Shown here: piece after piece, positions 4,181 through 22,162 of the stretch | Numbering within the stretch: the first letter of the stretch is position 1 | Layout: each line of letters begins with the position of its first letter | Source of the DNA: Arcobacter cloacae | GTDB lineage: Bacteria > Campylobacterota > Campylobacteria > Campylobacterales > Arcobacteraceae | Length of the DNA stretch: 64,000 nt | Direction: 5' to 3' | Assembly (NCBI RefSeq): GCF_013201935.1 | Contig: NZ_CP053833.1 | Span: 1,178,001-1,242,000 of the forward strand | The notes under the pieces: model-generated | Seen by the model: the letters and a program-made list of their open reading frames with translations, nothing else | What the model was told of the DNA's origin: nothing | Databases searched by the model: none | Translations under genes and position numbers: made by a program

Positions 4181-4789
4181 ATGAGTAAAAAAGTTGATGA
4201 AAAAAAAGAGATAAAAAGAATCAAAGAAAATATCACTGAAGTTGAATATAAAAAACTAATGTCATTTATTAGAGGAAATGAAACATTAAGAGAGAATACA
4301 AAATTAAATCTTCTTAGAACTTTTACTATTTTATTTTTTACTGGTCTTAGACTTAATGAAGTACAAGAACTAAAAATAAAAGATATAAAAAATTTATTAC
4401 AAGATGGAAATGTAAAAATAGATATTTCAAAAACATCTACTCAAAGAAAACTATATCTAACAAACTCTTTTCAAAAAGAACTTGTAAAACTATTTGATTT
4501 TAAAAATGAAGATGATGAAAATAAAATCATCTCAAAAGGTAGTGATAAAAATAAAAGAACACCTATTAATAATATTGTATTTATACAACAAGTAAATAAA
4601 ACCATTAAAGAGATTTTAGGAGAAGGATATTCTTCTCATAGCTTTAGACAAGGATTAATTACAGAAATGGGAAGTAAATCAATAAATATAAAAATCATAT
4701 CCCAATTTGTTGGACACAAAAATGTAAGTACAACAATGGGATATATAAAGCCTACTGATGAGCAGATTAGGGAGACTTTGATTAGGTGA
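4181..4789 (+). CDS. Short tyrosine recombinase (catalytic domain only)
   Basis: A 202-aa protein with the full set of catalytic boxes: TGLRLNEVQEL (box I Arg), SSHSFRQGL (H-x-x-R), QFVGHKNVSTT (Gly-His) and MGYIKPT (nucleophilic Tyr). It lacks the usual N-terminal core-binding domain; only about 30 charged residues precede the catalytic part. Phage and ICE integrases are usually 300-400 aa, so this is either a naturally compact recombinase, as in some integron- or XerH-like small enzymes, or a trimmed one. It stands alone upstream of the defence cluster. Confidence 0.7.
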   Translation: MSKKVDEKKEIKRIKENITEVEYKKLMSFIRGNETLRENTKLNLLRTFTILFFTGLRLNEVQELKIKDIKNLLQDGNVKIDISKTSTQRKLYLTNSFQKELVKLFDFKNEDDENKIISKGSDKNKRTPINNIVFIQQVNKTIKEILGEGYSSHSFRQGLITEMGSKSINIKIISQFVGHKNVSTTMGYIKPTDEQIRETLIR

Positions 4790-5051
4790 TTTGTATTGTA
4801 AAAATAGTATTTTAAAATTACAATTAGAATACATTTAAATTATAAATATAATAGTTTTGTAGTTTGATTATATTGTTGAAATATTATATTAATAATATAT
4901 TTGTATTAAATTTAAATTACTTTAGTAGTAAATATATAGTATAAAATTATTGTAAATAAAAATTTAAGTTGAATTTAAAATAATAATTAACCAGTATTTA
5001 TAGACATTTTTTATATTATACGAATCTAAAATAATAAAGGTGCAAATAAAA

Positions 5052-5903
5052 GTGAGTAAAATTAAAACATCATTTTCTGGTCATGATAAATTTGACTGTA
5101 AAATCGATTGGATTGTAAAAGGATTAAAAGAATTTAAAAATGATTCTTTATTATTCTCTTCTTCTAACATTGAAAATTCAATTTCTAAATTGGGACTTGG
5201 AATTAATATGATTAAATCATTAAGTCATTGGTTCAAAGTTTTAGGATTAGTAAATGAAGACAAGTTATCAATGTTAGGAGAACTAATATTAGAAAAAGAT
5301 CCATATCTTGAAAATAGTGACATACTTTGGCTATTTCATTGGAATTTAGTTAAAAATAAAGAAAAAACAACTTTATATTACTTATTCTTTAATTACATAT
5401 ATCAGTATAGATTTTCAAAGGAAAATATTTCAATAGAAGTAGTTAATTGGTTGGATAAAAATGAGATTAAATTATCATCTAATACTATCAATTCAGATAT
5501 TGATGTTTTTCTTAAAATGTATAGTAATTCTGAAGGTGATGAAATAAATTTTAGCTTATTATCAGATTTAAATATATTGACAAAATTAAAAAATAGTTAT
5601 AATTTAAATATAAATTCAACTGCTCCAATTTCAGATGATGTATTTTTGTATGTTCTAAATGATTATATAAATATTTTTAAACTAAAAGAAAATGATTCTT
5701 TATCAATTAATGACATACAAAGAGGTGAATTAAGTATTCAAAAAACATTTTGTATGAGTGAAAATAAACTATTTTCTAAAATAAATCAGCTACATAACTT
5801 AACTAATGGTAAGTTGTCTTATTCTGAAGCAGCTGGCATAAGACAAATATACATAACAGAAATTTTAGACAATTATACATTATTGAAAAATATATTGAAG
5901 TAA
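5052..5903 (+). CDS. sspB: SspB-like DUF4007 protein of a DNA phosphorothioation module
   Basis: A GTG start at 5052 is preferred (283 aa) because AAAGG lies at 5036-5040; GTG at 5040 would overlap that site. The N-terminus KTSFSGHDKFDCKIDWIVKGL, then ISKLGLGINMIKSLSHWFKVLGLV and DPYLENSDILWLFHWNLV, is the DUF4007 signature. To my knowledge SspB, which nicks DNA for single-strand sulfur modification in the Ssp system, belongs to this family. The next two genes, a large P-loop ATPase and a PAPS-reductase-like protein, give the sspB-sspC-sspD order. The C-terminus (SYSEAAGIRQIYI) may be DNA-contacting. DUF4007 genes also occur in other contexts, so the role is inferred from neighbours. Confidence 0.75.
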   Translation: MSKIKTSFSGHDKFDCKIDWIVKGLKEFKNDSLLFSSSNIENSISKLGLGINMIKSLSHWFKVLGLVNEDKLSMLGELILEKDPYLENSDILWLFHWNLVKNKEKTTLYYLFFNYIYQYRFSKENISIEVVNWLDKNEIKLSSNTINSDIDVFLKMYSNSEGDEINFSLLSDLNILTKLKNSYNLNINSTAPISDDVFLYVLNDYINIFKLKENDSLSINDIQRGELSIQKTFCMSENKLFSKINQLHNLTNGKLSYSEAAGIRQIYITEILDNYTLLKNILK

Positions 5904-5912
5904 GGAAAGATA

Positions 5913-8900
5913 TTGTTCTCTTATAAAAACTACATCACTCTAAATAGTAAATTTAGTAAATCAACTAATATCATTCATGATAGTGAAAATTGTGAAAACT
6001 ATATTCTTACAACATCAGCACAAAATGTATTAAAAGTACTTTTTAAATTAGATTATCATAATTCTATTTCACTAATTGGACCATTTGGTTGTGGTAAATC
6101 AACATTACTTTTATATATAAATACATTATTATCAAATAATGAACATCAAGAAAAATGCATTAAAAAACTAAAAGATACAAATAGTGAATTATATAACTCA
6201 TATAAATCTTTTTTAGATAATAAAAGCTTTTTAAGAATTAAAATTGTTGGAGAACATATTTCTTTCAAGTCCCAACTAAAAGCAGTTTTACAAGAAAATA
6301 AAGATTTAAAATTATCAAATAAATATTTAAAAGAAGAATCTTTTTCATTAAATAAGTTATTAGAATTTCTAAATAAAGATATTGAAAAATCGTTATATAC
6401 AAATGTTCTATTTTCAATAGATGAATTTGGTAAATTTATCGAGTATGGATTAGAAGATCATAATTCTAATGATATTTTCGAATTACAAACATTATCAGAA
6501 TATGTTAATAAAAAAGATAATTTTAAATTAATTGTATCTCTACATAAGTCTTTCAATGAATATAATTTAGATTCGAGTGCTATATCTTATTCTGATTGGG
6601 ATAAAATCCAAGGTAGATTCGAAAATATAGTATTTAAAGATGATTATTATGAAATGCTAAATATCTTTAAAGAAACTATTACTCTAAAAGAATCAAATGA
6701 TTTAGTAATCAGTCAAAATATAGTTAAAGAAATATGTTCTGATAAATCTTTTAACAAAAATATAGATATCAAAGAACTTGAAAACTTATTTGAAAAGATC
6801 ATTCCTATTCATCCTTATTCCGTTTTGATTATTGCTGAAATATTTTCAAAATACTTTCAAAACCAAAGATCTATTTATTCATTTATATTTTCTTCGGAAC
6901 CAAATGGTTTTCAAGATTTTATAGAAACGGAGTTTGAAAACCAAGAATTATATGGATTATCAAATTTATATGATTATGTAGCATATTTACTTAGAGTTTA
7001 TTCAATAGTTTTACCAGATAGTGAAGCTTGGTATTTTTCTGAAGATAGATTAAAAGATAATAGAGTTGAAAATAAAGTTCAAAAAGATATTATTAAAACA
7101 ATATCTTTAATTCATACTTTCAAACTATCAAATACTGTTTTACCAAATAGTAAGCATATAGTTTTATCTCTAATTGATAAGTATAATGAAGAAATTATTT
7201 TACAAAATATTGATAATTTAGAAAAGTTAAACTTATTAATATTCCAGGAACAAACACAATCATATTCTTTATTGGCTGATTCAAATATTGATATAAATAA
7301 AGAATTGAGAAATTTAACTTCTAAGAATATTACTTTTAATTATGAACTAGAGATTAATAAGATTATTAAAAACAAAGAGATAATAGCTAAGAGATATTTT
7401 TCTGAATATGGTTCAAAAAGAGTTTTTGAAAAAATATATGTTTGTGAAAATGAAAAAGTGTTAAAAAATAAATACAAAATATTTATTATAGATGCAAATA
7501 GATTTGACCTGAAAGATTTATCTTTAAAAAATAACAAATCTTTATTTTTATCTTTAAAAAATTCTCAAAAACTAAATACATTAGTTGAAAAAGTTGAAGC
7601 TTTAAAAATCATAAAAAATGATAATAAAGAAAAAGTTAGTATTAATACTATAGATATTTTAGATAATATGATTTTAGATAGTAGTACTGCAATTGATACT
7701 ATTTTAACAGAAGGATATATTAGTAGTAATATATATCATAATGGTTTAGAACATAAATTTTCTTCAAAAACTTTACAAAAGTTAATTTCAGATATTTCAA
7801 TGGATTCTTTTCCTGATACACCAAAAATCAATAACTATACACTAAATCATACTATTGCAAATAAAGGTACTAGTACAACTTTTATAAAAGCATTGTTTGA
7901 TAATATGTTAGAAAATCCAGATCAAAAAGATCTAGGGATTGAAAAATTTCCTGCTGAAAAGGCATTGTATCTATCAATAATTAAACCTTCTGGTATACAT
8001 AGATTTGAAAATAATGCTTATGCCTTATATCCTCCAAATGATTTAAATTTTGAAAATGTTTGGAATGAAATTACTAAATCTTTAAAGAAAAGAACAAAAA
8101 TTGTAGATTTAGTCACAAAACTTGAAGAAGAACCATACGGATTAGATAGAACTAAATCATTATTTATGATTTCACTTTTTATTATTGTAAATAAAGAATC
8201 AATAAATATTTTTAGAGACAATACATATATATTTGATTTGTCACTTGATATGCTTATGAATATGTGGAAAGCAACAGATAAATTTGAACTACAAATAATC
8301 AAATTGAGTAAAGATGAAGAAAATCTTTTCAAAGTATATGTTCAATTAACTACTGATCTAACTGACAGTAATTTTACAAAAGAAAAAGTATCTTCTATAA
8401 TTAGTACTTTACATAGTAAATTTAGTTATTTACCTGAATATGCTCACAGAACAATGAATCTATCAAAAGAAGCAATTTCATTAAGAACAGAGTTGGTTAC
8501 TATGCGTGAACCTACAAAATCATTTTTTGAATCTTTTCCAAAAGCTTTAGGTTTTGAAAAAATATCAAATATTGATAATGATGAATTTATTCAAAAATTT
8601 AGAAAAGCATTTAATGAAATTGCACTTTCATATAAAGAAGAGTTATTAGATTTAGAAAAATATATTTCATCAGTATTTTTATTTAAAACTACTAATTTTC
8701 CTTATGGAAATTCACTTATTGAAATGTCAGAAAAATTATCTAAGATTGATGGTTTAGATTATAACTCAAAAGCAATAGTAAGATGTTTTACTTACTCTAA
8801 TTCAATAGTAGAATTTGTAGATGGTTTATCTATGATTCTTATTAGAAAAAAACTAGAACAATGTTATGACAATGATGTTACTCAATTCAAAGAAAAATTA

Positions 8901-9155
8901 AGTGAATATGCTGAAAAGCTTTTATCAAAGCTTGAGTTAACAGATATTGCACAAGAAAACCAAGACGTTAGAAAGATATCATTAACTTCACTAGATAAAA
9001 GTTTGAATAAAATTATATCTATAAATAAGAATGAAATTGATAGAATCGATAAAAAAGTTGCTGAAATCAAAAAGTCAATACCTAATAATTTTACAAATGA
9101 TCAAAAACTATATCTAATTTCACAACTACTAAATGAAGAGTTTAATAATGAATAA
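5913..9155 (+). CDS. sspC: SspC-like P-loop ATPase (1080 aa)
   Basis: Starts at TTG 5913 behind AAGGAAAG, 9 nt after sspB. The N-terminal NTPase domain has Walker A GPFGCGKS (residues 56-63) and Walker B LFSIDE (166-171), followed by EFGKFIEYG. The remaining ~800 residues are helical and charged, with no domain I can name; the end has a coiled-coil-like stretch. In the Ssp system SspC is the ATPase working with SspB and SspD to place sulfur in the DNA backbone. It overlaps sspD by 8 nt, so the three are one operon. The call rests on context, order and the P-loop; the length should be compared with known SspC. Confidence 0.68.
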   Translation: MFSYKNYITLNSKFSKSTNIIHDSENCENYILTTSAQNVLKVLFKLDYHNSISLIGPFGCGKSTLLLYINTLLSNNEHQEKCIKKLKDTNSELYNSYKSFLDNKSFLRIKIVGEHISFKSQLKAVLQENKDLKLSNKYLKEESFSLNKLLEFLNKDIEKSLYTNVLFSIDEFGKFIEYGLEDHNSNDIFELQTLSEYVNKKDNFKLIVSLHKSFNEYNLDSSAISYSDWDKIQGRFENIVFKDDYYEMLNIFKETITLKESNDLVISQNIVKEICSDKSFNKNIDIKELENLFEKIIPIHPYSVLIIAEIFSKYFQNQRSIYSFIFSSEPNGFQDFIETEFENQELYGLSNLYDYVAYLLRVYSIVLPDSEAWYFSEDRLKDNRVENKVQKDIIKTISLIHTFKLSNTVLPNSKHIVLSLIDKYNEEIILQNIDNLEKLNLLIFQEQTQSYSLLADSNIDINKELRNLTSKNITFNYELEINKIIKNKEIIAKRYFSEYGSKRVFEKIYVCENEKVLKNKYKIFIIDANRFDLKDLSLKNNKSLFLSLKNSQKLNTLVEKVEALKIIKNDNKEKVSINTIDILDNMILDSSTAIDTILTEGYISSNIYHNGLEHKFSSKTLQKLISDISMDSFPDTPKINNYTLNHTIANKGTSTTFIKALFDNMLENPDQKDLGIEKFPAEKALYLSIIKPSGIHRFENNAYALYPPNDLNFENVWNEITKSLKKRTKIVDLVTKLEEEPYGLDRTKSLFMISLFIIVNKESINIFRDNTYIFDLSLDMLMNMWKATDKFELQIIKLSKDEENLFKVYVQLTTDLTDSNFTKEKVSSIISTLHSKFSYLPEYAHRTMNLSKEAISLRTELVTMREPTKSFFESFPKALGFEKISNIDNDEFIQKFRKAFNEIALSYKEELLDLEKYISSVFLFKTTNFPYGNSLIEMSEKLSKIDGLDYNSKAIVRCFTYSNSIVEFVDGLSMILIRKKLEQCYDNDVTQFKEKLSEYAEKLLSKLELTDIAQENQDVRKISLTSLDKSLNKIISINKNEIDRIDKKVAEIKKSIPNNFTNDQKLYLISQLLNEEFNNE

Positions 9156-10005
9156 AAAAGATTTACATGTTATAGCAATATCTGGTGGAAAAGATAGTGC
9201 TGCATTAGCTATATACTTAAAAGACAAATATCCTGAAAGAGAATTTATGTATCTTTTCTTTGATACAGGAGAAGAGTTAGAAGAGACATATCTATATATA
9301 AATGATTTAGAATCTAGATTAGGTATAAAAGTTAGAAGAGAATTCCCTGCAAAATCTTTTAAAGAATTACTTTTAGAACATAACGATTTCTTACCTTCAC
9401 CTACACAAAGATGGTGTACTAGAAAGATGAAAGTTGAAACATTCTTAAAAGTTATGGAAGAGTTTGAAGGATATCAAGTATATAACTATGTTGGTATCAG
9501 AGCTGATGAAGATAGGGTAGGGTTAAGACCTCCAATGGATAATATCACTACAGTTATGCCTTTTCAAGAAGATGGAATAACTTTAGAAGATGTAAAAAGA
9601 ATTTTAAATGATTCAGGTTTAGGACTTCCAAGATACTATGAGCCAGTAAAAGATGAGGAATACGATATCGAATATTATAGAAGTAGGTCAGGTTGTTACT
9701 TTTGCTTCTATATGAGACAAATAGAATGGGTATGGTTATATGAAAAACACCCTGATGAATTCAAAAAGGCAATGCAATTTGAAAAACAAGGTTTTTCATG
9801 GATTCAAGATATGCCATTAAGTGATCTTATCAAACCAGAAAATATAGATAAAATCAAAAAATCATATAAAAGAACTGAAGAATTAAAAAAGAAACAGCCA
9901 CTTAAAAATGGAACAGTAATGCAACAAATGAGTAACATGTCAAAACATGATCAGGCATTAGATGATTTTGAAAAAGATAAATTCTGTTCAATGTGTATAT
10001 TATGA
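9148..10005 (+). CDS. sspD: SspD/DndC-like PAPS-reductase-family sulfurtransferase
   Basis: The start at 9148 (285 aa) has a GAAGAG site 8 nt upstream; an in-frame ATG at 9133 lacks one. The ATP-pyrophosphatase loop SGGKDS is near the N-terminus. DTGEELEETY and the cysteine-bearing RWCTRKMKVE and GCYFCFYMRQIEW segments are those of the PAPS reductase/DndC family, in which cysteines hold an iron-sulfur cluster and relay sulfur. DndC and SspD activate the DNA backbone with ATP and deliver sulfur from a cysteine desulfurase. The C-terminus ends CSMCIL, two more cysteines. No desulfurase gene is adjacent, so a chromosomal IscS/NifS-type enzyme may serve as SspA. Confidence 0.85.
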   Translation: MNKKDLHVIAISGGKDSAALAIYLKDKYPEREFMYLFFDTGEELEETYLYINDLESRLGIKVRREFPAKSFKELLLEHNDFLPSPTQRWCTRKMKVETFLKVMEEFEGYQVYNYVGIRADEDRVGLRPPMDNITTVMPFQEDGITLEDVKRILNDSGLGLPRYYEPVKDEEYDIEYYRSRSGCYFCFYMRQIEWVWLYEKHPDEFKKAMQFEKQGFSWIQDMPLSDLIKPENIDKIKKSYKRTEELKKKQPLKNGTVMQQMSNMSKHDQALDDFEKDKFCSMCIL

Positions 10006-11633
10006 TAAGTGAAATAGAAAAAAAATTATTAAAATTTATAGATGACAATAATAGTGGTATTGTTAATTATGATTCATCGGATATTTATATATCGTTAAAT
10101 GACGAAATAACAATATTAGTTAATATTAATGGCAAAGAATTTGAAGAAGAATATGAAGAATTATACGAAGTTTTAGAAATTGAGATTTCATTAGATCAAA
10201 TTTATAATAGTGAGTTATCAAAAATTATTGATGTTAATAGTATATCTTTTCATTTTTTGACTCATTCTAATACGTATTTTCAAGTTTTAAATTTTTTAAG
10301 AACTTATTATAAATATTTTTCTAAGATACCTATTATAAATATTACCACTAACGGCAGTGGATATTGCTCTTACTATGATTTACTTTATGAAATAAAAATA
10401 GATAAAGACTGTTATTCAGAAATAAGCTTTTTTAAAGAAATATATAATTTAAAACAAAATTATGAAAAATGCAGTTTTATATCAAAATACTATGATGCCA
10501 TTTCTTGGTATGGATGGCAAGACTTCTCTAAGAAATTTGAGTTAGATTTTAATAGTGTAAAAATAGTAACTACTCAAACAAAAGTTAGAAGATTGAGTTA
10601 CATCAAAATGATATTATCTATGTTTAGTAAAAGTAATTATTATCCAGATAATATATTTAATAATAAAATTGAGTTAGAAGCTAAAAGGTATAATGAATAT
10701 CTTTTAGAATATATAAATACAAAAGGGCTTATAGATATTACTAAATCAGGTAATTCTTCAAAACCATATGTTGAAACTTGTCTTTCTTTAAAATTATTAT
10801 ATTCTCAGAATAATAAATATCAATTGTCAAAATACGGAAAAATATTTAATGTTTTAAGTAATGAAATAGAAGAAGTTCCAGGTAATTATTTTTCATTATC
10901 TAAATATGAAAAATCATTTTTTTTATTTTTTATTATGCAAAGTGATAACTTATATTTATGGGCACTCTTGGATCTGATTTATATCCAAAATAATAAAACA
11001 ACAATAAAAGAAATTAAAAAAGTATTTCAAGAGTATTTAATTAATCAACTGTACTTTACTGTTAAGCATTCAAATATACCAAATAAAGAGAAATCTAAAA
11101 TAACATCTTTAATAAATAGAATTAATTCTTGGAAAAAACCACAAGTATATTTAGAACATATTATTGAACCAAGAATAAATTGGTTATTAGATTTAGATTT
11201 ACTAGACAAAGATGAATTTTTACAAAATAATATAGTATTATCAAAAGAAGGATATGTTTTTTTTAGTGGTTTAAATTCTTATTTTGATATATTTCAAGAA
11301 AAGTATACTATCTTAGACCATTTAAGATGTATGGATTTTTTTAGTTTAATAAATGAAATGTATTCTATGGATGCAACAGCTGTAGAAGAAGATGACATAG
11401 AATTAATAGAAAACTATATAAATGAAAGCTTTAATTTGTTTAAAACTATTGCACCAAATAGAGTTACTGCTTCTCAAGCAATATTATATACATGCTTTAT
11501 GATGCTCTTTAAAGCTAAAAAAGTTGTTAATTTTTGTACAATACAAAATTATCTTGCAAGTAAAAAAAACACTAAATTTATTTTTGAGTGGTATAAAACA
11601 GAAAATGATGGTTCAATTAGGAGAAAAAAATGA
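10002..11633 (+). CDS. Unknown 543-aa protein in the Ssp/Dpt cluster
   Basis: ATG at 10002 overlaps the sspD stop by four bases (ATGA), so translation is coupled. The acidic N-terminal ~65 residues (KEFEEEYEELYEVLEIE) lead into a helical protein with no recognised catalytic motif. Repeated short helix patterns such as LSKYGKIFNVLS and LSKEGYVFFSGL resemble winged-helix units, which would suggest DNA binding; this is only an impression. Its stop overlaps the start of the following ATPase by four bases. Always having partners on both sides suggests it forms a complex with the ATPase and the PIN protein. It could correspond to part of the published SspFGH module, which I cannot verify. Confidence 0.6.
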   Translation: MISEIEKKLLKFIDDNNSGIVNYDSSDIYISLNDEITILVNINGKEFEEEYEELYEVLEIEISLDQIYNSELSKIIDVNSISFHFLTHSNTYFQVLNFLRTYYKYFSKIPIINITTNGSGYCSYYDLLYEIKIDKDCYSEISFFKEIYNLKQNYEKCSFISKYYDAISWYGWQDFSKKFELDFNSVKIVTTQTKVRRLSYIKMILSMFSKSNYYPDNIFNNKIELEAKRYNEYLLEYINTKGLIDITKSGNSSKPYVETCLSLKLLYSQNNKYQLSKYGKIFNVLSNEIEEVPGNYFSLSKYEKSFFLFFIMQSDNLYLWALLDLIYIQNNKTTIKEIKKVFQEYLINQLYFTVKHSNIPNKEKSKITSLINRINSWKKPQVYLEHIIEPRINWLLDLDLLDKDEFLQNNIVLSKEGYVFFSGLNSYFDIFQEKYTILDHLRCMDFFSLINEMYSMDATAVEEDDIELIENYINESFNLFKTIAPNRVTASQAILYTCFMMLFKAKKVVNFCTIQNYLASKKNTKFIFEWYKTENDGSIRRKK

Positions 11634-12757
11634 CATATCAAAAACTAGGATTAAAAGAAAACCCGTTTAGACTTACTCCACCTCTTGATCAAAGTGAAAT
11701 AATTTGGGCAGGAATGAATGAAGTTAAAACTAGTATTGAAAATAGGATTAAAATCGCTTTATTAACTAAAGCTTCTAGAATTGTTTTAAACTGGGGAGCA
11801 TATGGTAGTGGAAAAACTCATGCTTCATTATATTATTCAAAAACAAATAGATTGGAAGAAATGGCAAAAGATAATAATGTATCACCTGCTAAAAGCATTA
11901 AAATAACATTACCTAGATCCTCAAATAACATTGTGCAAGAATTTTTTAGATCATTCTTAGGACAGTATTCATTAGAAGATATATTCTTAGATTTTAAAAA
12001 AATTAAAGCTAAGTTTGGTGAAGACAAATTGAATTTAATGATTAATGCATATTCTAATGATAAAAGTATTGAAGATGTTTTGAAGAAATTAATAGATATA
12101 GAGAGTAATACTTCAGAGGATTTTATTAAATTAAAAAATTATATCTATGGAGATAGTACAAAAGGGACATTGACTTCTTTAGGTTTGCCTCTTGGTTTAA
12201 ATAATGATGAACAAATTGCAAATTTAATGGCAGCAGTTATTAGCTGTATAACACATGATAAAGAAATATATTCAAGCTTTATTATTTGGCTAGATGAATT
12301 TGAAGATATTGATACTGTTAATAAAAATTTAGCAGATAGATTTACAACATTTCTAAGACAATTTATTGATAAAACATCAAATAATTTATTACTTTTTTTG
12401 AATTTTACTCAAAAAACTTTTATGGATATGGAAGATTTATCTGGTTACTTAGGAGAAGCTTTAACTTCAAGGGCTAAGGCTAAAATTGATTTTGCAAACC
12501 CAACTTTAGAGGAATCTATTGTTTATATAAAAGATTTATGTGAAAATGAATTATTTAAAATAGAAGGAAAAGGTTCACCCTTTGATAATGATGAAACTAT
12601 AAAATATGTGTTAGAAAATATTGGGAACCTTACTGCAAGAAAAATAAATGAAAGTTTTTCTATAATTTTTGAAATGGCATTAATAATGGATAAAGAAAAA
12701 ATAACAACTGATTTTATTGATGAAATTAAAGATGAGATTATTGCTTGGAATAATTAA
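11630..12757 (+). CDS. AAA+ ATPase, ORC/ExeA-like, in the Ssp/Dpt cluster
   Basis: A 375-aa protein starting KLGLKENPFRLTPPL, the 'GL.ENPF' opening common in ExeA/TniB/ORC-like AAA+ ATPases. Walker A is GAYGSGKTH (about residues 57-65) and Walker B FIIWLDEFED (about 220-229). SRAKAKIDFANPTLEE after it fits sensor/arginine-finger and lid regions. Start and stop abut both neighbours (4-nt overlap before, immediate junction after), so it is part of a fixed three-gene unit. Such ATPases often load or activate a partner on DNA; here the likely partner is the PIN-like nuclease encoded next. Confidence 0.7.
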   Translation: MTYQKLGLKENPFRLTPPLDQSEIIWAGMNEVKTSIENRIKIALLTKASRIVLNWGAYGSGKTHASLYYSKTNRLEEMAKDNNVSPAKSIKITLPRSSNNIVQEFFRSFLGQYSLEDIFLDFKKIKAKFGEDKLNLMINAYSNDKSIEDVLKKLIDIESNTSEDFIKLKNYIYGDSTKGTLTSLGLPLGLNNDEQIANLMAAVISCITHDKEIYSSFIIWLDEFEDIDTVNKNLADRFTTFLRQFIDKTSNNLLLFLNFTQKTFMDMEDLSGYLGEALTSRAKAKIDFANPTLEESIVYIKDLCENELFKIEGKGSPFDNDETIKYVLENIGNLTARKINESFSIIFEMALIMDKEKITTDFIDEIKDEIIAWNN

Positions 12758-13609
12758 ATGAATCTTATTTTAGATACTTGTACTATAAATAATTTATTGC
12801 AAGTTGATTTATCTTTAGAAGAAGATGAATGTTCTTTAGAATTTGATTATCTTCATAGAATTCAAAAGGAATTTGATATTAAAATACCTCCAAAAATTTA
12901 TGAAGAACTAAAAAACACATTTTCAAAAAACTTAACTACAGGTTATGAAATAAAATTTATTAAGAACTATATGAGTAGATATATTTGTAATTATGTAGAT
13001 AAGGTTGATGAAAGTGATTTTGAATCATCTTTAAATTTTATTAAAATAACACATCCTAAATATGAACAAGAAGATAATGGTGAACTACATTTAGCTGCTT
13101 ATGCTTTATATTTAAATAGGTATAAAAATACTTTAGCTTTTCAGTCTTATTTTGTAACAGATGATGATGAAGCTATAGATGACTTTAAAGATACATTTAA
13201 AATTAATTTTTTAGGGGATATTCTAACAACAATAGATTTACTATTATTAATGAGCGTACATGGAATAATATCTCTTTCAAAGGTATTAAGTTTTGCTTTA
13301 AATTTAAAAAGGCAATATAGCCAGGTATATAACAAGCTAATCAATGAAATTAAGAGTTTACAAAAAAAAGAGCTTCTAGTACAAGAAAGTGCATTACTAA
13401 CAAAGATTTATAATAATATTGAAGATTTTAATTTAGAGGCATTAGAAGAAGATATAAAACATAAAATATTTCCAAATATTAAACAAAAAAATAAAAATAT
13501 AGAAACTTTTATTAGAGAATTTTTAAATGAAGATTTTAAAAAAGTTATAATATTAGAAAAAAAAATTGATGAAATAAAATCTAAATTTTGGGATGTTTCG
13601 AAAATATAA
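12758..13609 (+). CDS. PIN-like nuclease in the Ssp/Dpt cluster
   Basis: A 283-aa protein starting directly after the ATPase stop. MNLILDTCTINNLL has the first PIN-fold aspartate (D6); a glutamate-bearing segment follows (PPKIYEELKN), then DNGELHLAAYAL and YFVTDDDEAIDDF, the conserved acidic pattern (E, D, D) of PIN/VapC-like ribonuclease folds. The C-terminal half is a charged helical extension not seen in VapC toxins (about 130 aa), so this is a larger PIN protein, probably the nuclease of the three-gene set. A run of nine A near 13556-13564 in the last codons could slip. The short gap after it holds a promoter for the Dpt-like genes. Confidence 0.62.
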   Translation: MNLILDTCTINNLLQVDLSLEEDECSLEFDYLHRIQKEFDIKIPPKIYEELKNTFSKNLTTGYEIKFIKNYMSRYICNYVDKVDESDFESSLNFIKITHPKYEQEDNGELHLAAYALYLNRYKNTLAFQSYFVTDDDEAIDDFKDTFKINFLGDILTTIDLLLLMSVHGIISLSKVLSFALNLKRQYSQVYNKLINEIKSLQKKELLVQESALLTKIYNNIEDFNLEALEEDIKHKIFPNIKQKNKNIETFIREFLNEDFKKVIILEKKIDEIKSKFWDVSKI

Positions 13610-13686: not shown

Positions 13687-15489
13687 ATGTTTTTTAAACT
13701 TCTTGCTGCATATGCTCCTACCTCTCAAAACAAAGCATCTTATGACGAACATGTTACAAAATATGCTAAAAAACTTGGTGTTGATGAAATCAATATTGAT
13801 AATGGCTTATTTGCTAAACTATATGGCTCTTTTATTAAAGAAGCAAAATCTATAATAATTTCAGGTTCAGCTGGTGATGGAAAAACATATTTATTAAGAA
13901 AATTATATGAAACATTAAACAAAAGTATTTCATCTTGGAATGACTATATTCCTGAATTAGATTTTGATAAATATAAGATTAAGTTTATTAAAGATTTTAC
14001 TGAAATTGAACAAGTTGACAAAGAAAATGTTTTAGATGGATTGTACAATGCAATATATGAAAATTCAAATATATTATATTTTATAGCTGCTAATGATGGA
14101 ATACTAACAGATACATTAAGAGACTATCTTGATGAGAAACCACATTTTTCTAAGTTGTTAAATAATATAGAAGAACATATAGAGCAACACACAACGAATG
14201 ATGGATTAATATTATTAGATTTAAGTCAAACTTCATCTTCTAAAAACTTTGAATTATTGCTAAATGAAATTTTAAATTATTGTGATGAGTATGAAAAGAA
14301 TTGTCCTAGTTTAACAAATGAAGAAATATTTTGTCCTATACATTCAAATATTAATTTATTAAAAGAAAAAAATATCCAACAACAATTAATAAATGTCATT
14401 AGAACATGTGATTTAAATTATAATCATATTACATTAAGAAAATTGTTTATGCTTATTGCTAATACAATTTTAGGTTATAAAGGTGACAAAAAGATTTTCA
14501 ATAGTTGTGAAGAGGCTATTGAGTATTTTAAAGTGTCAAACTTAAGGACTGATGCTTCAATATATAATAATATTTTCGGAGAGAATCTTCCTCAAAGTAA
14601 AAGAGAAAAAAGCCCATTTAAAGAGTTAAGAGAACTTAGAATTGGGTTTGAAACTACTAATAATATAGATAGTTTTTTATTATTTGGAGACATTAAGAAT
14701 GAAAATCTATACAATAAAGAATTAGATAATCCATTTATTAATCTAAATATATTTAAAAATAAAAAGATTAACTATCTTAATGGTAGTGATGATGAATCTT
14801 CAGACTCTATTAATGATATACAAGAGTTTCTAATTTTCTTTAGAAGACACCTCTTTTTTAATCTCTCTAATCAACTAAAATTAGAAGATATTGAAATAAA
14901 TCGAAATGAATTAATAGCTTATAAACATGCAGATAAGTTTTATAATGATGTTGTTTTATCTTTAAAAGATGGCAAAAGCCCACAAAAAAGTATTATAAAA
15001 GAATTAGCTTTAGGTTTAAATAGAGTTTTCTTAGGTGAGTTAATTAGTAAAGATGCTAATGACAGGTTATATATCGCAACATCTCTTACTGGTACTATGT
15101 CAAAATTATCTTCTGAAATAATAGATGAAATAGTATTTAATAAAAAAAGTTCAAATGAAGGGCTTAATTTAGAACTTATTAATGGCTTTGATGATGAATA
15201 CTGTAAAGTCAATTTAATTATTCAATATGGTGGGGAAGATATAGCTAATTTAGAACTTGACCTTCATATGTTTGAATTTTTATGCAGAATCTCTGACGGA
15301 ATACTACCTACTAGTTTTTCTGTAGAATATTATGAACGTGTTTTAACCTTTAAATCCCAAATAGTAAATCATATTCTAAGTGAAGTAGAAGTTGATGAAA
15401 CATTTAATCTATTCACTCTAAATGATAAAGAAGGTACTCTACAATTTAATGAAATAGAAATAGGAAATGGTAATGTTTACGAAAGCTAA
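13687..15489 (+). CDS. dptF: DptF-like P-loop protein of the phosphorothioation-dependent restriction module
   Basis: A 600-aa protein with Walker A GSAGDGKT at residues 60-67. The GSAGDGK form, the length and the position upstream of a DptG/DptH-like pair fit DptF (DndF). Residues 96-120 contain a YFIAANDGILTDTL segment following the NTPase core. The DndFGH complex restricts DNA lacking phosphorothioate marks and contains ATPase activity. It has its own promoter region and ribosome site, and its 3' end overlaps the next gene. Other P-loop proteins of defence islands share the GSAGDGKT loop, so the family call leans on context. Confidence 0.62.
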   Translation: MFFKLLAAYAPTSQNKASYDEHVTKYAKKLGVDEINIDNGLFAKLYGSFIKEAKSIIISGSAGDGKTYLLRKLYETLNKSISSWNDYIPELDFDKYKIKFIKDFTEIEQVDKENVLDGLYNAIYENSNILYFIAANDGILTDTLRDYLDEKPHFSKLLNNIEEHIEQHTTNDGLILLDLSQTSSSKNFELLLNEILNYCDEYEKNCPSLTNEEIFCPIHSNINLLKEKNIQQQLINVIRTCDLNYNHITLRKLFMLIANTILGYKGDKKIFNSCEEAIEYFKVSNLRTDASIYNNIFGENLPQSKREKSPFKELRELRIGFETTNNIDSFLLFGDIKNENLYNKELDNPFINLNIFKNKKINYLNGSDDESSDSINDIQEFLIFFRRHLFFNLSNQLKLEDIEINRNELIAYKHADKFYNDVVLSLKDGKSPQKSIIKELALGLNRVFLGELISKDANDRLYIATSLTGTMSKLSSEIIDEIVFNKKSSNEGLNLELINGFDDEYCKVNLIIQYGGEDIANLELDLHMFEFLCRISDGILPTSFSVEYYERVLTFKSQIVNHILSEVEVDETFNLFTLNDKEGTLQFNEIEIGNGNVYES

Positions 15490-16996
15490 TATACTAAAAG
15501 AAAAATATGGTAAAAATCTATCTACTCCATTTTTACAAGAATTGATTTGGTTTCATAGGATTAAAGAAGATCAAGATAAAGAATTATTAGCTTTAGAATT
15601 TTTAAATGTCTGTGCAAGTCATGCAAGAGTTGATAGATTATTTGATAAAGAGTTATCAACTGTATCATATAAAAAAGACATGCAAGTTAGAACTATAATA
15701 TATAATTTCCCAGAGTTAGAATCTATTGTAAAATCATCAAATGAAGAAGATGATAAATGGATAGAAATTGAAAAAACTCTCTGTGAAAAATCTGAAAATC
15801 CATATAGTTATAAACATTTAAAAGATAGATTTGAAACGGTTGATGTATTTTATCACTCGATACAATTATTAAGAAAAGCTTCTTTAGGACTAAATACATC
15901 ACGAAGGTGGACAAGTAAATTTTTATTCCCTTTTTCTTTTGATACTTTATTTGTAGATGTAGATAATAGAAAAGATGCATTTTCATTAGATAGAAGATTC
16001 TTTTCTCGTGGAGGAGAGGTTTTATATCTAATGGTTAGTCGAGGTAAAAATGCTGATAAACTAAAAGAACTAATAATTGAATCTTATAAAAAGTCTCCAC
16101 AGAATAAAAGATGGAATTCCCTATTAAATGTATTAAGAGATGATTCAAATATTTATGCAGATGATAGAGAGTTAGGGTTTTTAGGAACAGATAATCATGA
16201 ACTATTTGATCAATTAGTAGATGATTTAATAAAATTATTTGAATTAAATATTAGCCAAAATGATATTTTTGAACATCTATCTTCTATTTCTGCATATTAT
16301 ATGGTTCATTTTATAATGATTAAATCCCTTGAGATAGTTAAAACGAGTAATATCAGAACTGAAGTTACTAAAGTAGTATATCCTATTGAGTTGATGGCAC
16401 CTAAAAGTGATCATGTTAGAAAATCTTCTAGGCAAATTTATAAAATTAATGAAGATTTACCATTAGAAGCTTTATCTAAGGTGTTTAATAATTATATGGA
16501 TAATCTTGATAATACAATTGATAAAGCTACATTGTTAAAAAAATTGAAAGATGACTTAAATTATTTTTATGAAGATAATCAAGATGAGGAGAATATTAAT
16601 TTAACTGAAATAAGACAAGATATTTGGAAAGAAATTTTAAAAAAAGCTAAGTCTGATTTGACATCTATTCATAGAGTACTATTTAAAGGAGTAGGTTTAG
16701 CCAGCGTTAAAAAAACAAATAGTTACAGATATCTAGCAAATGATGAGTGGCTTAAAACATTAGTATTGATCAATGTTAATAAAAGAGTTACTTTTCAAGA
16801 ATTTATAGATCTTTTATATAAAAAATATGGATTTATTATAAGTAATAAGCATTCAATTTTATTAATAGAATCATATTCAGAAAGTGATTTTGAAAAAAAT
16901 GAACAAAGATTATTTGATAGATTACGTGCATTAGGTTTATTGGAAAATAAATCTGATGGATATGCTTATGTTATAAATAGATATGGGAGAAAATAG
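15473..16996 (+). CDS. dptG: DptG-like protein of the restriction module
   Basis: ATG at 15473 (507 aa) is favoured over ATG 15467 because AGGA (15462-15465) is then 7 nt upstream. It overlaps dptF by 17 nt. No catalytic motif is recognised: the protein is soluble and helical with a basic middle (SRRWTSKFLFPFSFDTLF). The last ~80 residues (VTFQEFIDLLYKKYGFIISNKHSI..) resemble a winged helix. The assignment is by position between a DptF-like NTPase and a DptH-like translocase, as in DndFGH. Only 3 nt separate it from dptH. Confidence 0.55.
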   Translation: MFTKANILKEKYGKNLSTPFLQELIWFHRIKEDQDKELLALEFLNVCASHARVDRLFDKELSTVSYKKDMQVRTIIYNFPELESIVKSSNEEDDKWIEIEKTLCEKSENPYSYKHLKDRFETVDVFYHSIQLLRKASLGLNTSRRWTSKFLFPFSFDTLFVDVDNRKDAFSLDRRFFSRGGEVLYLMVSRGKNADKLKELIIESYKKSPQNKRWNSLLNVLRDDSNIYADDRELGFLGTDNHELFDQLVDDLIKLFELNISQNDIFEHLSSISAYYMVHFIMIKSLEIVKTSNIRTEVTKVVYPIELMAPKSDHVRKSSRQIYKINEDLPLEALSKVFNNYMDNLDNTIDKATLLKKLKDDLNYFYEDNQDEENINLTEIRQDIWKEILKKAKSDLTSIHRVLFKGVGLASVKKTNSYRYLANDEWLKTLVLINVNKRVTFQEFIDLLYKKYGFIISNKHSILLIESYSESDFEKNEQRLFDRLRALGLLENKSDGYAYVINRYGRK

Positions 16997-16999
16997 AGT

Positions 17000-19900
17000 A
17001 TGAGTCTTATAAGTAAATACATCATAAATAAGATTATTAAAGAAAGTCAAATATCAAATTTTGATGGAACAAGTGGAAAATTTATTTTAAGAAATTATCC
17101 TCCTTTTGTATTTGAGTCTTTAATAAAATATTTTTCTTCTAATATTCAATACAATGTTATATTATTGATTGATGATAAATTAAACTTAACTACTGATAGT
17201 GATAATTGTATTAATGCTAATCATGAAATTATGGCACAGTACAGAAATGAGAATGTTAAAAATTGTTCTGTTGAATTAGATAAAATTTCATATTTAGTTT
17301 TTTTAACAAATGAAACAATTGATACCTTAAATGATATTAGTACTTTAACTCCAGATGATATTAGTATTGAATTTGAAAATATTATTGATTTAATGGAAAG
17401 CTCACTTTTAAATGGTAAATCTAAACAAAATATTAAGACTATTACAAAAGTATTATTAAAAGAAATTGAAGAATTAAGTCCATTTGAAATAGAGACTTTT
17501 ATTGAATCTATTTTGAAATATATGGAAGAAGAAGCTTATCCTTTAGAAGATGCTATGGGATTATCATTAGATAAAATAAATTCTTTTAAATGTCATAAAT
17601 GTTTTGAATCATTAAAAAAACTAGATTCTATAAAGCAAAAAGATTTTCAGAAACTTATAAAACCTATTAAAATGATTTCTGCTGCTTTATCAAAAAGAGT
17701 AGGTAATAAAACTCTTAGTATAGAAGAATTAGAAGAAAAATATTATAAAAATATTGAGACAAAAGAACTTGATGATGAATTCAAAATATTAGATAAGAGC
17801 AAACAAAATTTAATCGAAAAATTTATAAAAGCAGACGCAAGAGAAGCTTCACAGGATAAATATTTATTTAGTCAATTAGATTGGTACAATGACTCTATAT
17901 ATAGATTATTTCAAAAGACAAAAACAGATACTACTCAAAAACTTGGTGCGTGTACCATTGACTTACTATCAGAAAAAGATGCTGATATTACTGATAATGA
18001 AAAAGAAAATTTATTACATTATGATGAATTATCTGCAAAAGAAAGAGATAGTTTAAAATCTGTATTAGAACCTATCTATCTCAAATATAAACTTACAATA
18101 GAAGATAATAAATCATTAAGAAGTAAATGGGATAAGTTTTTATATCCGACTCAAACAAAATCTAATGATTTTATTTTAGGTGTGTTAGAAACAATAAAAA
18201 AACTAAAATTAGATGATGAAAATGTGGAACATATTAGTGTTTATTTAAAACAGAAACAATCAAAAGCTATAATGAGAAACTATTCTAAATATGCAATAAA
18301 TTATTTGAATAGAAGATATTCAATATTAAATTCAATTTCAGAAAATATTTACTTCGATTTTGAATTTATAAAAGAAATTGAAGAAAAAACTGAAAGTAAA
18401 TTAGAAAAAGATAGAAAAGATCAAGTAATAAAAAAATATAAGAAGGGGAGTGTATCTAAAACTGCAAATGAGTTACATTTTATAATAGAATCAAAAGATG
18501 CCGATGGTAAAAAACTTGCAGAAAGAAAATTAATATGGTCTTTTAATCCAAATAGTTTATTAAGTGGATATAAAGAGGATATTGATTCGATACAATCACA
18601 TTTAAAAAATAATAGCTTATATGGAAATATTGTATATAGAGCAACTGGTTCTGAAAAAGGTGAAAAAAAACCATTAAGTTTATATGATTTTAGTTCTTTA
18701 GAAAGTAGAGGTAGTAATTCAGGGTATATTTTATTTCCTAAAAAATGCCAAGATAATGCACCTTCAAGTAAAAGTATTATTAAGGTTGCAAAAGAAATAT
18801 TAGATATAGAAAAATTTAAAGAATTTGAAGAACTAATAAAAAAATATATGAATGAATATCTATGGATATTAGAGCATTTAGATGTAAAAAGAAATATTGA
18901 AAAAAATATTTTTAATTTTATAAAGATAGAGGAATTTAGTAATAGTTATATAAAATTAAGTAATTTTCTTTATGAAAATAGTGATAATGATAGATTTAAA
19001 AAAGAAGTTATTGAAGAATTTCTTTCTTTATTAACAGTTAGAGTAGGGAAAGAAGATTCAGTTATTATTCCTTCTTATCATCCTTTAAGATTAATATCAT
19101 ACTTTGTTAAATTAAAGCATGCTTTTGGTTTCATTGATTCTTATATAAAATCAGATGATATTTGTATGATAAAAGAAGATCTGTTTTTTAGTGATCTTGA
19201 ACAAAGTTTTTATACTCCTTATTATCCAGAGGTATTTAGATTATTTAATGCTAATACAAAGGAAGAAAGTTTACTTCATATTTCTGAAGTATGTGATGAT
19301 TACACAGTACTTGATCCAATAAAGAACTATCTTGAAAGTGGACAAAGTACTGATCCATCTGTTCAAACAACGATACTTACAAAGGTTATAGAAAACTATT
19401 TATCATTAAATAATCATAAGCAAAGTAGTTTAAAAATATTACTTCATGCCGTAAATAACTATGATTTTCCAGTGAAATTTATGAAGAAATTAATGTCACT
19501 AGATTTTGTAAATGAAAATAATAGTTTTGAGATTTATTTAAATGATGTAGATGCATCTCACATAAGAAAAATGTACAGATCTTTTTTAGTTGATCAAAAC
19601 TCTAAAGATTCAGAAGAAGCTTTTGAATATAATGAAGTTTCATTCTTATCGAATATAAGATTAAATGCTTTTGATCAAAGTTTTAAACAACTTGATAGTG
19701 TAAATGATCAGCTAAATATTGCTTTTTTAAATGATTTTGTGTCTTCAAAAGCAAAACTTGAATTTAGGAATCAAATATTAGATATATCTTATGATTTATT
19801 TGATTATCATCCTAATATGTGGACAAAAAGAAAGTATATGACAGAAAAAGAACTAACTGTTGGTAAGTATTTAGTGTCACCTGCAAAAACAGAATTAACT

Positions 19901-22162
19901 AGCTCTTTTTATGATTTATTATATTCAACAATGAGTTCAAATAGAGATGATTATAAAAATAAAATACCAACATTAAATATTGATAGAGGACATCAAAATT
20001 TATCTTCAGATTTAGCAGCAATTCATAAAAGAACAGATTGGGTTGTTAATTTAGATTCTCTCTTAGATAAGAAAATTTTAGAAGAATTTGGAGCAAATGT
20101 AATAAAGTACCGTAAAGCTCGACATATAAATAGAAATTTAGTTATATCATCTAAAGCTAATACTATACTTTTAGAAAATCATTTAATTAAAAAATTTGAA
20201 GAATTTAATGTAAATACTCAATTGATTAGATCTTCTGTAGATAAAATAATTAAATCTGCAAATGAACTTTCTGGAGATGTTTTATTAAAAGCTATAGGTA
20301 GAGGAAGATTTGCAAATGAGATGTTAGGGTTAGTACTTACAAAGACTATTCTAGAAAATTGTACAAATAAAAAAAATGTAATGATTTATATTGATGATTA
20401 TGCTGATTGGTTTTTATCTAGTATTAATTCAGAAGAAAAGTTATTAATGAATCAAAATAATGTATTAGCAGATATTTTATCTATCACACCTATTTTTGAA
20501 GATAATGATTTGTCTACTATTTATGTTGATATTGTTGAAGTCAAATTTTGTAATGAGGCTGGAAGAGCTAATTTAGCTAAAAAATCATTACAACAGACTA
20601 AAGATTCATATAATCATATAAAAAAAGTTTTTGAAAATAGTAATTTTTATGACAAAGAGTATTGGTTAGCCAAAATTTCTGATTTAATAGTAGAAACTCA
20701 TCATAAAAGTTTTGAAAATAGTTTAACATCAGAAGATATTAGAAATAAAATTAGACTTGATAAGACAATTAAATATAAAGTTAGAGGTATGTCATACATA
20801 TTTGTATATGACCATGAGGATGATTATCAAGAGATTAAAGATGATATTACGCAGTATGTAATTGGTTTGAAGTCTATTGTTTCAATGATTGAATCAATGC
20901 CTAGTATTAATATAAATTTTAATGAATTAAGTTTACCTACTTATGAAAAAATAGGAAAAGATAAATTTGATTTATCATTAATTATTGAAAACGTAGAAAC
21001 TGATGAAAAATATTCTGATGAGGAAGTTGTTTTAGATGATAATATAATTGATAATGATGTATCTGAAATCAAAAAAATAAAAGATTTAAATATAAAAAAT
21101 GATGAGATAGAGGGAAAACAAATTTCAGATGCAGTCAGAAAAATAGTTTTACATCATAAATATAGAGCTAAAATAATTAAATATTTATTTACTCCGAATG
21201 CAATTCGTATTTCACTAGAACCAGAATTAGGATGGAATGAATCAATATTTTATAAAATGGCAAATGATTTTTTATCTGTTGAAAGATTAAAACTATTGAG
21301 GGTTGAAGTTGTTCCAGGTTCTTATGATTTAATTTTTGAAAGAAAAGAAAGACAAGTAATATATTATGAAGATTGTTTAGATAATAGAGAATTAAGTGAA
21401 GGTTTTGGGAATACAAAAATACTTCTAGGTAGAAATGAAGAAAATAATGAAGTTGTATATTATAACTTAAATAGTATAGATCCTCATGCCTTAATAGGTG
21501 GTCAAACAAATAGTGGAAAAAGTGTATTAATAAATACAATAATTGTAGATTTAATTAGAACTAATACTCCAGAAGAGTTAAAATTAATATTATTGGATCC
21601 AAAACAAGTTGAATTTAGTAGATATGCAAATATACCTTATTTAGATGAAGATGGAATAATTGTAAGTAAAGATATAGCTATAAAAAAATTAGACCAAGTT
21701 GTGCAAGAAATGGAAATTAGATATTCATTATTTAAGGAATTAGGTGTAAATAATATAATTAAATTTAATGAGAAATCAAATAAAAAATTAAATAGAATAG
21801 TTGTAGTATTTGATGAATTTGCAGATTGGATGCTAGATGATGAATTTAAACGAACTGTAAGTGATTCAATACAAAGACTTGCAGGAAAAGCAAGAGCTGC
21901 TGGAATTCACTTAGTAATTGCAACTCAAAGACCAGATAATACAGTAGTACCTCCTATTTTAAGGGCTAATTTAGGTGCTAAATTTGCATTGAAAGTTGAT
22001 GCAGAAAAAAATTCAAATATTATTTTGGATGAAACAGGAGCAGAAAAGCTTTTAGGTAATGGCCATATGATAACCAAATTTGCAGGTAAAAAACTATTTG
22101 TTCAGTCGACATTTATGAGTGATGAGTATATTGAGAATATTATAGAAACATTAAAAAGATAA
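17000..22162 (+). CDS. dptH: DptH-like large protein with C-terminal FtsK/HerA ATPase
   Basis: A 1720-aa protein. The first ~1450 residues have no motif I can name. The C-terminal domain is a HerA/FtsK-type motor: Walker A GGQTNSGKS (about 1500-1508), LILLDPKQVEFSRYANIPYL, Walker B VVVFDEFADW (about 1602-1611) and ATQRPD. DptH/DndH proteins are about this long with a C-terminal HerA-like ATPase and act with DptF and DptG to restrict unmodified DNA. GGAGA lies 9 nt before the ATG. It is the last gene of the cluster; intergenic DNA and the oppositely oriented core gene pepD follow. Confidence 0.75.
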   Translation: MSLISKYIINKIIKESQISNFDGTSGKFILRNYPPFVFESLIKYFSSNIQYNVILLIDDKLNLTTDSDNCINANHEIMAQYRNENVKNCSVELDKISYLVFLTNETIDTLNDISTLTPDDISIEFENIIDLMESSLLNGKSKQNIKTITKVLLKEIEELSPFEIETFIESILKYMEEEAYPLEDAMGLSLDKINSFKCHKCFESLKKLDSIKQKDFQKLIKPIKMISAALSKRVGNKTLSIEELEEKYYKNIETKELDDEFKILDKSKQNLIEKFIKADAREASQDKYLFSQLDWYNDSIYRLFQKTKTDTTQKLGACTIDLLSEKDADITDNEKENLLHYDELSAKERDSLKSVLEPIYLKYKLTIEDNKSLRSKWDKFLYPTQTKSNDFILGVLETIKKLKLDDENVEHISVYLKQKQSKAIMRNYSKYAINYLNRRYSILNSISENIYFDFEFIKEIEEKTESKLEKDRKDQVIKKYKKGSVSKTANELHFIIESKDADGKKLAERKLIWSFNPNSLLSGYKEDIDSIQSHLKNNSLYGNIVYRATGSEKGEKKPLSLYDFSSLESRGSNSGYILFPKKCQDNAPSSKSIIKVAKEILDIEKFKEFEELIKKYMNEYLWILEHLDVKRNIEKNIFNFIKIEEFSNSYIKLSNFLYENSDNDRFKKEVIEEFLSLLTVRVGKEDSVIIPSYHPLRLISYFVKLKHAFGFIDSYIKSDDICMIKEDLFFSDLEQSFYTPYYPEVFRLFNANTKEESLLHISEVCDDYTVLDPIKNYLESGQSTDPSVQTTILTKVIENYLSLNNHKQSSLKILLHAVNNYDFPVKFMKKLMSLDFVNENNSFEIYLNDVDASHIRKMYRSFLVDQNSKDSEEAFEYNEVSFLSNIRLNAFDQSFKQLDSVNDQLNIAFLNDFVSSKAKLEFRNQILDISYDLFDYHPNMWTKRKYMTEKELTVGKYLVSPAKTELTSSFYDLLYSTMSSNRDDYKNKIPTLNIDRGHQNLSSDLAAIHKRTDWVVNLDSLLDKKILEEFGANVIKYRKARHINRNLVISSKANTILLENHLIKKFEEFNVNTQLIRSSVDKIIKSANELSGDVLLKAIGRGRFANEMLGLVLTKTILENCTNKKNVMIYIDDYADWFLSSINSEEKLLMNQNNVLADILSITPIFEDNDLSTIYVDIVEVKFCNEAGRANLAKKSLQQTKDSYNHIKKVFENSNFYDKEYWLAKISDLIVETHHKSFENSLTSEDIRNKIRLDKTIKYKVRGMSYIFVYDHEDDYQEIKDDITQYVIGLKSIVSMIESMPSININFNELSLPTYEKIGKDKFDLSLIIENVETDEKYSDEEVVLDDNIIDNDVSEIKKIKDLNIKNDEIEGKQISDAVRKIVLHHKYRAKIIKYLFTPNAIRISLEPELGWNESIFYKMANDFLSVERLKLLRVEVVPGSYDLIFERKERQVIYYEDCLDNRELSEGFGNTKILLGRNEENNEVVYYNLNSIDPHALIGGQTNSGKSVLINTIIVDLIRTNTPEELKLILLDPKQVEFSRYANIPYLDEDGIIVSKDIAIKKLDQVVQEMEIRYSLFKELGVNNIIKFNEKSNKKLNRIVVVFDEFADWMLDDEFKRTVSDSIQRLAGKARAAGIHLVIATQRPDNTVVPPILRANLGAKFALKVDAEKNSNIILDETGAEKLLGNGHMITKFAGKKLFVQSTFMSDEYIENIIETLKR

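Follow-up and report, generated by a model that had tools for sequence, protein, structure and literature searches.

A three-gene candidate effector module behind the phosphorothioation genes sspBCD in Arcobacter cloacae

The ssp locus and its closest described relatives

In defence based on phosphorothioate (PT) marking, the writer genes sspBCD may be accompanied by restriction parts that treat the mark differently: SspFGH attacks DNA without PT, and SspE needs PT to act (PMC8092258). In the same paper, 2,211 of 2,678 sspBCD loci had neither sspE nor sspFGH, and the authors asked about other restriction partners. ORC/Cdc6 ATPases combine with multi-winged-helix-turn-helix (multi-wHTH) proteins and nucleases in anti-invader systems (PMC10853773); BrxD has been placed in this group, with a suggested role as a loader (PMC12839542). 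PIN proteins are a less common class of RNase at Dnd and BREX loci, some of them paired with OLD-ABC ATPases (PMC10853773, PMC12839542). Here we describe three genes located between sspBCD and sspFGH in a 64,000-nucleotide stretch of the Arcobacter cloacae genome (contig NZ_CP053833.1, positions 1,178,001 to 1,242,000, forward strand; hereafter the window). They encode a protein without family match (X), an AAA+ ATPase and a PIN-domain protein, and are referred to as the trio. We consider it probable, if with modest confidence, that the trio is one exchangeable effector module of SspBCD-based PT defence, co-expressed with the writer. A literature search with preprints, supplements and subscription papers outside its scope returned no description of the trio or of a swapped position after sspD, which is no proof of absence.

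The writer genes sspB (5040-5903), sspC (5913-9155) and sspD (9133-10005) matched the PADLOC models SspB (8.7e-107), SspC (2.6e-143) and SspD (1.2e-91), and the restriction genes sspF (13687-15489) and sspG (15467-16996) matched SspF (8.7e-115) and SspG (1.4e-99). The restriction gene sspH (17000-22162) encodes a protein with an FtsK-like C-terminus; PADLOC was applied to the other ssp proteins. Positions refer to the window, and all ssp and trio genes and the motifs given below are on the forward strand. The trio (10002-13609) is one coupled run between the two gene sets, giving the order sspBCD-trio-sspFGH. It consists of X (10002-11633, 543 amino acids from the ATG, or 546 from a GTG that lies 9 bases upstream), the distantly BrxC/BrxD-like AAA+ ATPase (11630-12757, 375 amino acids) and the PIN protein (12758-13609, 283 amino acids). 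The genes sspD and X share an ATGA in a 4-nt overlap, as do X and the ATPase gene, and the ATPase and PIN genes abut with 0 bases between them. A first-pass annotation, made from the sequence alone, had described three genes joined by 4-nt overlaps or direct junctions and placed between writer and restriction genes; the open reading frames (ORFs), the junctions and the flanking PADLOC calls all bear this out, and an artefact of ORF calling was judged an unlikely source of the trio. A gap of 77 nt separates the PIN gene from sspF, which, set against the overlaps and abutting genes upstream, ties the trio to the writer genes and not to sspFGH. Promoter-like sites were fewer than in shuffled sequence and were uninformative on a separate transcription of sspF.

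Like SspFGH of the SspABCD system of V. anguillarum FF-93 (PMC8092258), the trio is a candidate restriction part made up of three genes adjoining sspBCD, one of them for an ATPase. It differs in having a PIN protein and no FtsK-like protein, and both modules stand side by side in the window; no trio protein matched the PADLOC SspF and SspG models, and the true SspFGH adjoins the trio. SspE, a PT-sensing nickase of the GmrSD type, is also an effector attached to sspBCD, but the trio has no GmrSD_N domain. Modification loci of the Dnd and BREX types can likewise have a PIN RNase nearby, and these enzymes have been interpreted as backups (PMC10853773, PMC12839542), whereas the trio PIN goes with a BrxD-like AAA+ ATPase and X in an ssp operon.

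Domain content of the trio proteins

A PIN fold with a long helical extension had been proposed for the third protein, and both were recovered in its AlphaFold2 model (predicted local distance difference test 86.6), built from an alignment of five relatives. Residues 1-175 form the PIN fold, for which the best VIA-align match was a Pyrococcus protein (Z 12.7, root mean square deviation (rmsd) 3.9, 141 aligned residues); the matches listed include the PIN domains of VapC, protein-only RNase P (HARP), SMG6 and Rrp44, with VapC4 (5h4h) at Z 12.4. The first Foldseek rows included PIN domains of VapC, Nmd4 and EST1A at modest E values, 0.005 at best. Residues 173-277 make up a mostly helical C-terminal extension.

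Five acids are invariant in all five relatives: D6 (12773-12775), just past strand 2-5; E50 (12905-12907), in helix 45-58 after strand 40-43; E109 (13082-13084) of an invariant N107-G108-E109, at the start of helix 108-123; and D135 and D136 (13160-13165), just past strand 130-133. These ends of secondary structure elements are the usual sites of the catalytic acids of PIN domains, where D is commoner as the third acid than the E of this protein. From the model, we predict a PIN-domain nuclease with a complete acid set. At the sequence level, no Pfam PIN family matched the window protein at E 10, PIN_6 matched one of the five relatives (E 0.084), and no family in PADLOC, Pfam or NCBIfam covered X or the PIN protein; PDB sequences gave nothing meaningful with profiles of the ATPase, X and PIN. 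The fold is common to this protein and to VapC and other PIN ribonucleases, but the trio PIN is longer, with its helical extension and an ATPase partner. A VapBC toxin-antitoxin pair was judged unlikely, there being no gene of antitoxin size beside the PIN gene, which has the 375-residue ATPase upstream and sspF downstream.

The second protein, given earlier as an AAA+ ATPase, retains the motifs Walker A (GxxGSGKT, residues 56-63, 11795-11818; G56, G59, S60, G61, K62 and T63 invariant in 5/5) and Walker B (W[LI]DEFE, residues 220-225, 12287-12304; W220, D222, E223, F224 and E225 invariant in 5/5). Its family scores were below threshold, with 15 bits for BrxC_BrxD (cut-off 22.2) and 14.1 for NCBIfam BrxD (cut-off 350); across the five members, Pfam BrxC_BrxD was matched in three (best 0.0011) and AAA_22 in four (best 0.0081). 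As judged from sequence, the protein would be a distant relative of the BrxD or ORC-Cdc6 group, below the family cut-offs.

In X, the first ~190 residues are weakly conserved and are missing from a copy in Sulfurovum, where the ORF begins just behind sspD, and the C-terminal part is conserved. Residues 315-434 (10944-11303) contain a winged-helix-like region that VIA-align matched to CggR and to a MarR-like regulator (Z 9.2, rmsd 1.7-2.0 over 74-78 residues), which in the model points to DNA binding. Against the several winged helices of a triple-wHTH protein of the DndG/SspB type, this is the one winged-helix-like region seen in X, the remainder being poorly modelled. No match was obtained to the SspB profile, to SspG (hhalign E 0.3) or to a 416-residue protein of locus L022, and Foldseek returned nothing for X from the PDB.

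A second setting for these proteins is an operon in genome G437 (L018), in which hhalign recovered matches to the profiles of the ATPase (E 1e-15) and of X (E 3e-7, a protein of 356 amino acids); comparison of X with three other proteins yielded E values of 0.05-0.3. This operon also encodes a DrmC-like PLD protein, a second AAA protein and a HerA-like ATPase, with no PIN match, and the trio PIN did not match the PLD protein. Since relatives of the ATPase and X occur together here with a PLD protein, we suggest that AAA-X is a modular core paired with varied nucleases. The operon thereby resembles the HerA/FtsK capture systems, which combine an ORC/Cdc6 ATPase with a multi-wHTH protein (PMC10853773), but the trio itself has no HerA, has PIN instead of a PLD or restriction endonuclease protein, and is tied to a PT writer. 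The L018 operon (L018:9444-15122) and a further one with a large type IIG-like methyltransferase (L022:8096-15418) both hold AAA relatives and HerA-like ATPases, the latter with mad8 as best PADLOC match; the two operons look like undescribed or MADS-like defence loci.

Occurrence of the trio and of other genes after sspD

Membership was defined by a full-length match to the AAA protein, and five genomes qualified. Among 397 genomes of the window's phylum searched, two had such a match, the window's own and G023, from another family. Scanning of genome contigs with two peptide patterns added a Sulfurovum contig (L006), Desulfococcaceae HSG9 (L007) and Bacterium UASB270 (L008), and no further full-length AAA was found in 104, 175, 153, 297 and 4 genomes of related groups. 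The plasmid and phage collections gave no tblastn match to AAA and the plasmids none to PIN, four scans of viral contigs revealed no relative, and matches in PHROGs were no better than E 0.019. Weaker AAA matches, not counted as trio, were obtained in G437 (three places, best 1.8e-18) and in G506, G562, G613, G751, G846 and G152 (E 9e-4 to 3e-6); PIN had no match in the neighbourhoods inspected, in G437 (two stretches), G562 and G613.

X, AAA and PIN were contiguous, in the same order and on the same strand, in all five genomes, indicating an arrangement beyond chance; neither a missing PIN fold nor a failure of the three genes to be conserved as a unit, which the first-pass annotation had named as counting against it, was encountered. 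The trio adjoins an intact sspBCD in three genomes, follows sspD at a contig edge in one and adjoins a broken writer in one. In the Sulfurovum contig the order was sspD-trio-sspF, with the contig ends cutting off the remainder. In G023, sspBCD and the trio were followed by opposite-strand genes including one for a TPS-type secreted protein. UASB270 had sspBCD, a transposase gene, the trio and an RNA ligase gene (PF09414, E 1.6e-38; L008:12015-12671) overlapping the PIN stop codon, and then a GHKL ATPase gene on the opposite strand.

SspF was present in two of the five genomes (window, Sulfurovum) and was not found in the G023, HSG9 and UASB270 genomes, so that the trio is more than an adjunct to SspFGH. 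The GmrSD_N domain, which SspE carries, was missing from the genomes of the window and of G023; Sulfurovum, HSG9 and UASB270 have it, in proteins that may or may not be SspE. In G023, no SspG or SspH match was found within 19 kb downstream of the trio, the genome-wide search having covered SspF. The trio was the only nuclease-bearing module found at this locus, which provides a concrete case of sspBCD followed only by the trio. An arm accompanying a separate DNA cutter is thus too narrow a description of the trio, since neither SspF nor a GmrSD/SspE-type domain was found in the G023 genome.

These data bear on a guard or backup arm, in which the trio would be silent while Ssp works and PIN would cut RNA when a phage protein blocks restriction. 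The analogy is PrrC, an anticodon nuclease whose gene stands between hsdS and hsdR and which guards the type I system that these genes encode. In the window and Sulfurovum, the trio is flanked by the writer on one side and restriction genes on the other, which is consistent with such a role, as is the RNA ligase adjoining PIN in UASB270; two papers regard the PIN and HEPN RNases of Dnd and BREX loci as backup suicide effectors (PMC10853773, PMC12839542). The three genomes without a detected SspF offer no such restriction module to guard, although the trio might there guard the writer alone; we regard this reading as unlikely.

The place taken by the trio is occupied by other genes in related loci. 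G365 has DzbA (4e-28) and DzbB (9e-5) between sspD and sspFGH, and G229 has a 499-residue protein with an Mrr nuclease domain (4e-5) there. In G195, sspD is followed by DzbA (9e-31), a DzbB-like protein of 442 amino acids (30% identical to DzbB of G365) and a GHKL ATPase of 835 amino acids. Dazbog (DzbA, DzbB) thus shares the place after sspD in G365 and G195 with the trio, but has no sequence match to X or AAA; a similarity of PIN to one DzbA (BLAST E 0.003 in a set of 15 proteins, 26% identity over 167 residues) was too weak and was not accepted as homology. The trio was absent from 19 further loci inspected, of which 12 belong to the phylum of HSG9 and 7 are on plasmids, taken from 58 plasmid records. 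In L090, L102, L104 and L106, sspF directly follows sspD, although L106 has two genes separating sspC from sspD. Of 8 loci with a recognisable sspF, 4 had an insert between it and sspD; the sample of the window's phylum supplied three of these and Sulfurovum the fourth, the window and Sulfurovum having been included because of the trio. Different relatives therefore have different modules after sspD, which goes beyond the view of the first-pass annotation: behind sspBCD, the trio replaces or accompanies other effectors.

If the site after sspD were a landing spot for any defence genes, the trio could be an unlinked passenger, standing alone and making no use of PT. Dazbog, listed as a separate system (PMC10952713), occupies the site in two genomes, and in HSG9 the trio persists beside a broken writer. 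On the other hand, none of the five genomes had a trio copy apart from ssp genes, and a start of X is possible inside the sspD stop codon in both the window and G023. Co-occurrence argues in the same direction, since strong SspD matches (E <= 1e-85) were found in 5 of the 397 genomes, with the trio AAA in two of these and in 0 of the other 392 (hypergeometric p 1.3e-4; 0.048 when all 87 genomes with any SspD match are counted). The 82 weaker matches (E 1.6e-27 and up) were counted as other PAPS-reductase-like proteins, and no SspB or SspC was found within 8-14 kb in the 5 of these 82 genomes inspected. An unlinked passenger seems to us quite unlikely.

The writers themselves did not predict the insert. 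Relative to the window, G023, with the trio, is 60% identical in SspB, 54% in SspC and 72% in SspD, and G195, with Dazbog-type genes instead, is 57%, 55% and 69% identical. UASB270 has an AAA 54% identical to that of the window beside an SspC of only 21% identity, and the nearest writer to its own among those compared, in G460 (L099, SspC 50%), goes with a GHKL ATPase and no trio. This comparison is also informative on the very unlikely reading of the trio as a writer accessory, in which X and AAA would help SspBCD to choose or scan sites and PIN would be a regulator and not an effector. Coupling of the trio to the writer genes and not to sspF would fit such a role, as would the winged-helix-like region of X. 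However, the writer of G195, as similar as any, has no trio, nor do those of G229 and G365, and PIN retains its full acid set.

Several observations were made on other genes of these loci. A GHKL-type ATPase family recurs at ssp loci (L066:9918-12425, L008:12675-14885, L099:7185-9586, L107:3-1625): in G195 it follows the Dazbog-type genes, in UASB270 it adjoins the trio, in G460 it comes after sspD as two ORFs, and on a Devosia plasmid it precedes sspB. A different pair consists of a protein with two GHKL-type domains and an unknown of 637-714 amino acids (L105:9834-14088, L106:4420-8993); Acinetobacter baumannii has it on the opposite strand after sspD, whereas Candidatus Chlorohelix has it between sspC and sspD. 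L092, L093, L096 and L097, from the phylum of HSG9, have a gene for 1368-1542 amino acids (770 in L097) in the place of sspF, and a gene for 1752-1809 amino acids; SspG is weakly matched in three of these loci and a second SspB-like match occurs in three, and the four are perhaps a divergent FGH type. On a Pseudanabaena plasmid, a PemK/MazF toxin gene and a small partner (L103:7980-8575) lie between sspC and sspD.

Possible mode of action and flanking genes

For the trio as an exchangeable effector module, the proposed loader role of BrxD and the ORC/Cdc6-wHTH-nuclease systems lead us to infer that the BrxD/ORC-like ATPase forms an assembly with X on DNA and that this licenses PIN. AAA and X would read the PT state of the DNA or an infection signal, and this reading would release or position the PIN nuclease. 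More speculatively, and in line with the RNA-targeting or abortive arm suggested in the first-pass annotation, PIN might then cut host RNA, phage RNA or both, leading to growth arrest of the infected cell. RNA is placed slightly ahead of phage DNA as the target because of the company of PIN folds and the RNA ligase beside PIN in UASB270. The other occupants of the place after sspD resemble a known PT reader, since Dazbog and SspE have a DUF262 NTPase domain in common (PMC10952713).

Several points weigh against this interpretation. The trio was found in 2 of 24 ssp loci drawn regardless of its presence, and three of the five known genomes came from a search led by AAA itself. A transposase gene separates sspD from X in UASB270. 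In HSG9, the intact trio is convergent to sspB and a broken sspC, there was no SspD in the genome at E 1e-30, and the trio may persist without a working writer. The model of X is poor as a whole (confidence 55, and mostly 69-87 at residues 315-434), and the PIN acids were placed by conservation and the ends of secondary structure elements and not by superposed active-site geometry. The PIN fold leaves the substrate unfixed, and the RNA ligase beside PIN is a single case. The arrangement in HSG9, a draft genome, fits a PT-needing, SspE-like action or a silent trio better than an SspFGH-like one.

A broader and less probable proposal is that writer-coupled effectors are swapped at a plug-in position right after sspD, with X-AAA-PIN as the RNA-cutting one in a PT system that attacks RNA; in one lineage or more (UASB270), an RNA ligase would reverse the damage, by analogy with PrrC and its repair. 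Were the trio to work as an effector module, PT marking would gain another type of effector, which might act on RNA, and module swapping behind sspD would offer a simple route to more effectors, by inspection of the genes that follow it.

Turning to the flanks of the locus, the window holds no tRNA, and no sspA-type cysteine desulfurase was present among the scanned genes upstream of sspB, which are of integrase and HipA type; the sulfur source for the writer is likely the housekeeping IscS. A mobile island may be marked by two genes of a split HipA-type pair (Couple_hipA, HipA_C), which lie upstream of sspB together with a tyrosine recombinase (604-1931 and 4181-4789).

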